From the NCBI GenBank assembly GCA_017622575.1, contig JAGAQU010000012.1:1-64000 (forward strand): DNA of 64,000 nucleotides, read 5' to 3'. The stretch comes from Lachnospiraceae bacterium. Lineage in GTDB: Bacteria; Bacillota; Clostridia; Lachnospirales; Lachnospiraceae. The first letter of the stretch is position 1, and each line of letters opens with the position of its first letter. The notes beneath the pieces are model-generated. The model saw only the letters and a program-made list of their open reading frames with translations, made no database searches and had not been told where the DNA came from. The translations under genes and the position numbers were made by a program. This document shows positions 62,073-64,000 of this stretch, piece by piece.

Positions 62073-64000
62073 TTAATCAGTCTGTGCAGTGCTAGCGCCA
62101 AGCTGTGATGCACTGTCAGTAATTAATTCTTCCTCATCCACAAGATCAAAATAATAGCTGATCACGTCCTTTGTGGTTCTCGCTGCGTAGTCTGAAGAAT
62201 AGCCGTAAGCAATTCTGGTAGCTATGGCAATTTCCGGATTTTCATAAGGTGCATAGCAGACAAACAACGCATGATTTGCACGGCTCTTGCTTTCCTCCGC
62301 CGTACCGGTTTTTCCTGCCACATTTACTTTCAGATCACTGTAATAAGACTTTGACTCCACTACCTGTCTCATACCTGTATGAATCGCATTCCATTCTGCG
62401 CCGGTGAGATCTACTGTGTTTCTGATTTCTGCCTGATTGTCTTTTAGCAGATTACCGTTTCTGTCAGTAATTTTATCTATCAGTGTGAGGTTATAGCAGG
62501 TTCCGCTGTTAGCAACCGTTGTAACATATCTGGCAAGCCCCACAGTAGTAAAGTTATTGGAACCCTGTCCGATTGCCGATCTGACAGCATCTGTATCTGA
62601 AATCTGAGGTGTATATTCTTCAATCTCAATGCCTGAGGTCTCAGAAAGTCCATACATATCTGCGTAAGTCGCAAGCTTGGACAAGCCGAGTTCCGAAGAA
62701 TAACCGTTCTCTGTCATACCTAATCTGTAAGCCATCTCATAAAAGAAAACATTACATGAATTTTTGATGGCTCCTGTTACGTTCAACGAGCCATGACTGC
62801 CTCTTCCGTAAATCCAGCATTTTGGAGGCGGATCAATTTCATTAAACTGTCCGTTACAGGAAAAAGTTGAGGTGGTATTGATAATCCCCTCCTTTAATCC
62901 AGCTGTTGCAGATACCATCTTAAAGGTTGAACCCGGGGCGGTCCTCTGCTGTGTTGCATAATTGATCATAGGAGTGGAGAGGTCACTCTGTAATGCGGCA
63001 AAATATTCCGCATCCACACCATTAGCCATTTTGTTATTATCATATCCCGGATAGGAAACAAGCGCCAGCACATCTCCCGTATTCACATCAGTGATCACCA
63101 TAGAACCGCTACAGGGATCAAGAGCGAGCTGGGCAGGAGTAATATCCAGATTCTGAATTCTGTTCATCATAAAGGTATACGCGGAAATTGCCCCATTCTT
63201 TAATTGGTTGCTCTCCGCTTCATCAATATCAACAATATCCTGTTCCAAAAGAATCAGACATATCTGACGTCCTGATATCAGATCATTTTTGATCATGTAT
63301 TTATAAATATTTTTGGAAAAATCAATGTTTTGCTGAAGCTGTTCAAATATATAGTCCAAAATTCTTAAATAAATTTCTTCCGAATCAGAGTACTGACTGT
63401 CAAGATCAAGCTTTGTCACATCAATCCAGTTTTTGGCAATACAATAATTCAAATATTCGTTTAAGCTGATCACTTCTTCTGTGGTCCATGCAATATAAGT
63501 TTTATCTTCGGTATCCACCTTACTTCTTTCAATGATACCATTATTATAGAGCATTTTGGCAATAAAGCTTTCATAGACCTGATACTCGGTTGTCAAATTC
63601 TGATAAGAGGTCTTCTTATCTGTCAATTCTGTTCTGAGTTCCTCAAACACCTTCTCTTTTCTGGACAGGAAAGTCTCATAGACTGCTTTTTCTGTCTCGG
63701 AAGCATCCGGTTCCTTAAAATGTTCCGTATCGATAATATTATTGTTGATCAGTGCAAAATAAACATCGTAGATAGGTATCTTGATCTTACTGCTGCTGAC
63801 ATTTTCCGTATTAAATTCCTTCGCATTGATAATATTGGAATACAGGATACCTGCAAGCTTTTGTTCCAGGATCTTATAAGCTGCTATCTGAAGATCATGA
63901 TCAATCGTCAGATAAACATCATTTCCTGCCGTAGATTCCACATGATTTGTGGTTTCAATCACTTTACCCATGTTATCAACAAATACAGTTTCGCTTCCTT
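62073..64000 (-). CDS. mrdA: PBP2-type class-B penicillin-binding protein, 5' end cut by the window
   Basis: At least 642 aa; the frame stays open past the window end, so the N-terminal transmembrane and dimerisation parts lie outside. Counting from the first internal methionine (63971), the pedestal strand VYLTIDHDLQIAAYKILEQK (20-39) is followed by a roughly 245-residue insertion (about 43-287), then SGSMVITDVNTGDVLAL, S348TFK351, NSCN and KTGT. It crosslinks peptidoglycan during elongation with RodA, encoded two genes past minC. The insertion contains repeated short motifs and is unusual relative to short PBP2 proteins. Confidence 0.9.
   Translation of the reverse strand, partial: GSETVFVDNMGKVIETTNHVESTAGNDVYLTIDHDLQIAAYKILEQKLAGILYSNIINAKEFNTENVSSSKIKIPIYDVYFALINNNIIDTEHFKEPDASETEKAVYETFLSRKEKVFEELRTELTDKKTSYQNLTTEYQVYESFIAKMLYNNGIIERSKVDTEDKTYIAWTTEEVISLNEYLNYCIAKNWIDVTKLDLDSQYSDSEEIYLRILDYIFEQLQQNIDFSKNIYKYMIKNDLISGRQICLILLEQDIVDIDEAESNQLKNGAISAYTFMMNRIQNLDITPAQLALDPCSGSMVITDVNTGDVLALVSYPGYDNNKMANGVDAEYFAALQSDLSTPMINYATQQRTAPGSTFKMVSATAGLKEGIINTTSTFSCNGQFNEIDPPPKCWIYGRGSHGSLNVTGAIKNSCNVFFYEMAYRLGMTENGYSSELGLSKLATYADMYGLSETSGIEIEEYTPQISDTDAVRSAIGQGSNNFTTVGLARYVTTVANSGTCYNLTLIDKITDRNGNLLKDNQAEIRNTVDLTGAEWNAIHTGMRQVVESKSYYSDLKVNVAGKTGTAEESKSRANHALFVCYAPYENPEIAIATRIAYGYSSDYAARTTKDVISYYFDLVDEEELITDSASQLGASTAQTD

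Follow-up and report, generated by a model that had tools for sequence, protein, structure and literature searches.

A predicted all-helical accessory domain in the elongation PBP2 of Lachnospirales, found in single and tandemly doubled forms

The cell-shape enzyme PBP2 and its partner RodA, both of them antibiotic targets, make the side wall in rod-shaped bacteria. The window, a stretch of 64,000 nucleotides from a Lachnospiraceae bacterium, ends inside a gene for a PBP2-type transpeptidase that carries a long extra segment in front of its transpeptidase (TP) domain. The question raised by this locus is what this segment is, how it arose and what it may do in the wall-building machine. The features of the locus are as follows.

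62073-63998, minus strand: 3' part of the gene for PBP2, an elongation class B PBP; PF00905, E 3.6e-49
62163-63107, minus strand: TP domain with the GSTFK, SCN and KTG motifs
63834-63893, minus strand: linker helix of the TP domain (LQIAAYKILEQKLAGILYSN), which runs on into the insert; model helix 2-20 and alignment
63780-63833, minus strand: variable loop from the linker helix to unit A, the least conserved stretch with 50% mean pairwise identity
63468-63779, minus strand: unit A, the diverged copy; insert-model helices 41-50, 56-60, 66-93, 102-117 and 131-139
63195-63467, minus strand: unit B, the copy nearest the single-unit form; helices 144-153, 159-162, 171-188, 190-202, 208-217 and 225-232
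63099-63194, minus strand: conserved C-terminal hairpin into the first TP strand (GAISAYTFMMNRIQNLDITPAQLALDPCSGSM), 73% mean pairwise identity

The open frame of the PBP2-type transpeptidase is interrupted by the end of the window and by the end of the contig, which lies at 64645, and the PBP2 gene extends only ~215 codons past the window. The first 233 residues of PBP2 are found on another contig, at its start (G000:C25:1-699), with mreC adjoining this fragment at C25:1274-1729; the C-terminal part is on C107. Downstream of PBP2 the window features minC, minD, minE and rodA, followed by methylglyoxal synthase-like and D-Ala-D-Ala carboxypeptidase-like genes, names that were assigned by reading the translations. 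In Parablautia intestinalis (L041) the order is unbroken and consists of an mreB-like gene, mreC, mreD, PBP2, minC, minD, minE and rodA; therefore, the window PBP2 is the elongation PBP2 of an mreBCD-PBP2-minCDE-rodA operon. The catalytic S/K, S-C-N and K-T-G columns are invariant in the PBP2 alignment, and the model of a 99% identical full-length relative (L008) features a single N-terminal membrane helix (helix 2-30) followed by the pedestal. The protein can be assigned to PBP2 securely. The insert-bearing gene is present in one copy in the source genome, and a few Lachnospiraceae genomes have two insert-bearing PBP2 paralogues (G122:C2:857636-860419 and C3:581939-584698; G005:C92 and C1). 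The NCBIfam model TIGR03423 (pbp2_mrdA) scores 279.7 bits against a cut-off of 455, a value that refers to a frame without its N-terminus and to a match that is split by the insert. This bears on annotation, as the curated MrdA model places the N-terminally cut window frame under its cut-off, and intact Lachnospirales PBP2 proteins may also escape MrdA naming by this model owing to the insert. Near the active site, at 62754-62858 on the minus strand, invariant Cys, Cys and His residues and the SCN cysteine (C685, C698, H706 and C719 of L008) suggest a zinc site as in C. difficile PBP2 (D515, D528, H538 and C551), in which case Cys replaces both Asp residues.

The extra segment occupies 63099-63893 on the minus strand; it starts at the linker-helix LQ, extends to the first TP strand and has 265 residues, of which ~240 are insert. 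An earlier note on this DNA had placed the insertion at 63110-63845, which is essentially correct, and had held that its reading would fail if the segment were a standard PBP2 subdomain; it is not such a subdomain. The length of the site, over the same stretch, was measured in 89 aligned PBP2 proteins. The site has 24-43 residues in 45/45 PBP2s from outside Lachnospirales, 142-172 residues in a single-unit Lachnospirales form and 247-266 residues in a double form that occurs in Lachnospiraceae and five further families, and none of the 89 proteins has a length between these three size classes. The C-terminal hairpin is common to the single and double forms. In family f2, single-unit PBP2s (L199 and L189; G036) have ~565 residues after the insert vs ~340-370, so that extra sequence has been added within or behind the TP domain, and G036 has two such paralogues. 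In 38 proteins the insert keeps a mean pairwise identity of 60%, so it is probably under constraint, and the value for the pedestal and the TP domain is 70-71%; the rate of evolution is somewhat higher in the insert than in the enzyme core, and dS is saturated between species.

The accessory domain, inserted where the linker helix leads into the first TP strand, is predicted to be all-helical and extracytoplasmic. Modelled alone, the insert is all-helical with a pLDDT of 89.9 and a pTM of 0.85, and in the full-length model of a relative with a 99% identical insert its pLDDT is mostly 84-96. There is no match above the curated cut-offs of Pfam and NCBIfam within the insert and no match to it among PDB sequences. 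The SHOCT-like helix-turn-helix motif (PF22746) superficially resembles the LYEQGIITxxD turn of the insert, but this assignment was rejected, with a best E of 0.044 in 2/18 members, under the curated cut-off. Homology of the insert to the pedestal helical cluster of PBP2 itself or to its TP domain was also rejected (hhalign Prob 0.1-0.2). Fold searches with the isolated insert model gave a best E of 1.2 against the PDB with Foldseek and a best Z of 2.9 over 49 residues with VIA-align, nothing matched in a viral fold library, and the full-length model returned only other PBPs. For the modelled insert, the lack of a PDB fold match is compatible with a new fold.

The internal architecture of the long form was studied with hhalign, using one profile built from 18 single-unit sequences and one for each half of the long form. 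The single-unit profile matches unit B with an E of 2.3e-26 over 126 columns and unit A with an E of 8e-7 over 82 columns, and unit A matches unit B with an E of 3.7e-5. In 150 column permutations the observed scores were never reached, and reversed profiles are near background. When blocks of 10 columns were permuted, the score of the single unit against A was reached in 0/100 cases and that of A against B in 2/100. The link between A and B rests mainly on the single-unit bridge because this block control is not clearly passed by the direct comparison. A genome search with the single-unit-only profile gave tandem matches at 63102-63482 (E 6e-21) and 63522-63893 (E 8.5e-6), and tandem matches to this profile are also found in G063, G075, G086, G106 and G129 of the same sample. 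In the insert model, units A and B begin with predicted helices in the same order. These profile comparisons show that the long form arose when a helical unit of ~95 residues was duplicated within it.

The earlier note had also described degenerate helix-turn repeats within the insertion. These are real helix-turn segments, and 4/5 of its motifs pair across the two units, with ALINNNIIDTEHF paired with YCIAKNWIDVTKL and MLYNNGIIERSKV with LLEQDIVDIDEA, and the repeat signal is significant in the hhalign permutations, the tandem profile matches and the scoring of the motifs. Six short helix-turn segments have a mean pairwise score of +4.7, which is matched by 0/5000 random sets (-7.0 ± 1.5) and, when these may optimise their register, by 0/200, a test that is optimistic because the segments were picked by eye. 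A regular repeat period was rejected; the insert is not a classic solenoid because its short motifs are irregularly spaced.

The distribution of the domain was surveyed across genomes. TIGR03423 as a survey query gave mostly shorter FtsI/SpoVD-type PBPs as its top matches, and for this reason a full-length PBP2 was chosen as the query. The domain is present in 144/147 Lachnospirales genomes that are at least 90% complete, where the matches lie in PBP2-sized frames, and a single-unit profile search found it in 0/277 genomes of other Clostridia. It is absent from the non-Lachnospirales genomes of a 398-genome phylum sample except for one match (G795, E 4e-4), which lies inside a Tex-like RNA-binding protein and was rejected as a chance match. 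The lineage specificity proposed by the earlier note is thus borne out, although it belongs to the order Lachnospirales and not to Clostridia at large. Of the three Lachnospirales exceptions, G155 and G170 are without the domain and without mreC, the presence of which was looked at in 13 genomes, and G052 features mreB-mreC-mreD followed by a contig end where PBP2 is expected. A tree of the TP domain, with the insert left out, explains the absent, single and double states with two changes, and the SH-aLRT support is 100 for the insert-bearing group and 97 for the double group. This is read as one gain in Lachnospirales followed by one tandem doubling: sequence comparison indicates that a unit of ~120 residues was gained, and that a ~95-residue part of it was duplicated in a lineage including Lachnospiraceae to give the ~240-residue form. 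A double form gained first, with one unit lost later, needs no more changes on the tree but is less natural for a tandem duplication.

PBP2 proteins from other orders of Clostridia are of the same gene type and have a pedestal of similar length (~230-250 residues), but their 24-43 residues at the site give no match to the domain profile. The best PDB sequence match of the window PBP2 (E 2.7e-37) is C. difficile PBP2 (PDB 7rcw), which is likewise a large class B PBP of the elongation type and carries helical insertions that have no known homology (PMC9334274). It aligns on either side of the insert and has only ~30 residues at the same site. The helical insertions of C. difficile PBP2 are a central helical cluster at residues 111-240, inside the pedestal, and a coiled-coil stretch at residues 805-915, between TP strands 3 and 4 (PMC9334274); the Lachnospirales insert differs in site from both. 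Proteobacterial and Thermus PBP2/MrdA proteins (6g9f, 6tii, 6pl5 and 8tj3) share the pedestal and TP architecture and have RodA and MreC as partners. E. coli and Yersinia PBP2 match the full-length model with a Z of about 40, and the alignment with the Yersinia protein shows no insert at this site, where only a few residues are present. A Lachnospirales PBP2 insertion was not found described in a literature search that covered few subscription papers, and the accessory domain appears to be undescribed.

The point at which the insert departs from the TP domain directly follows the linker helix to the pedestal, and because of this position we infer a docking or regulatory role; that the insert is a putative docking or regulatory module of the Rod complex is, in our judgement, the likeliest reading, at about even odds. 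In Thermus and E. coli, RodA-PBP2 is turned on when its TP domain moves relative to the pedestal, and MreC is the likely trigger of activation (PMC10257715), and in H. pylori MreC binds the head of PBP2 in the pedestal (PMC5626683). Placed at the base of the TP domain, a helical platform would be in a good position to sense or set this movement. The insert would bind another extracytoplasmic surface, which could be MreC, the loops of RodA, the pedestal of PBP2 itself or a Lachnospirales partner, and binding would bias the TP domain towards its closed or open position, and with it the switching-on of RodA-PBP2. A second unit would then enlarge its binding surface. Docking of RodA, MreC or another partner is plausible from the sequence data, with an insert that is extracytoplasmic, conserved and missing in the two mreC-less genomes. 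A co-distributed partner gene for the insert was not found, and the operon looks ordinary. A further and unlikely extension, offered tentatively, is that the insert is a control module with a new fold, specific to the order, that binds a Lachnospirales-specific partner or replaces the MreC step in RodA-PBP2 switching, with the doubling marking a change of elongasome control in Lachnospiraceae and their relatives.

The insert could also be a passive structural element, a brace or spacer between the TP domain and the pedestal that has no specific partner and serves reach towards the wall or stability. This reading is possible if somewhat doubtful. The insert joins the linker helix at one end and the first TP strand at the other without a break, its sequence divergence is moderate, and one helical insertion of C. 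difficile PBP2 contacts all of the subregions of the enzyme (PMC9334274), all of which would suit a brace; however, a mere spacer need not keep a folded domain across a whole order, and the EQG and ITPxxLxLDP motifs are nearly invariant in the insert alignments, although these could be structural. Binding of lipid II, of nascent glycan or of a wall polymer particular to the lineage, by which the insert would feed the TP site, is quite improbable. Such a role fits an element in the extracytoplasmic part of a wall synthase, but the units of the insert are strongly acidic (pI 4.2-4.6, net -9 each), which is unfavourable for anionic wall polymers, the insert matches no wall-binding family, and its insertion point, as judged from the PBP fold, should be away from the active-site cleft.

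The PBP2 gene is cut by a contig end in the source assembly, as would suit an artefact in the form of a misassembly, a frameshift fusion or chance repeats. This explanation has next to no probability: the same stop-free segment lies at the same position in 33/36 genomes of the same genus, the source included, it is also present in isolate genomes such as Parablautia and Butyrivibrio, so that independent assemblies refute it, and the permutation, tandem-profile and motif tests speak against chance.

The wall-building machine of Lachnospirales has a lineage-specific part, and the docking or regulatory role proposed for it is testable. The domain is fixed throughout an order of dominant gut bacteria, at the place where enzyme switching is thought to occur. 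The insert is usable as an order-specific marker, and the forms with no, one and two units provide a clean natural experiment on SEDS-bPBP regulation.
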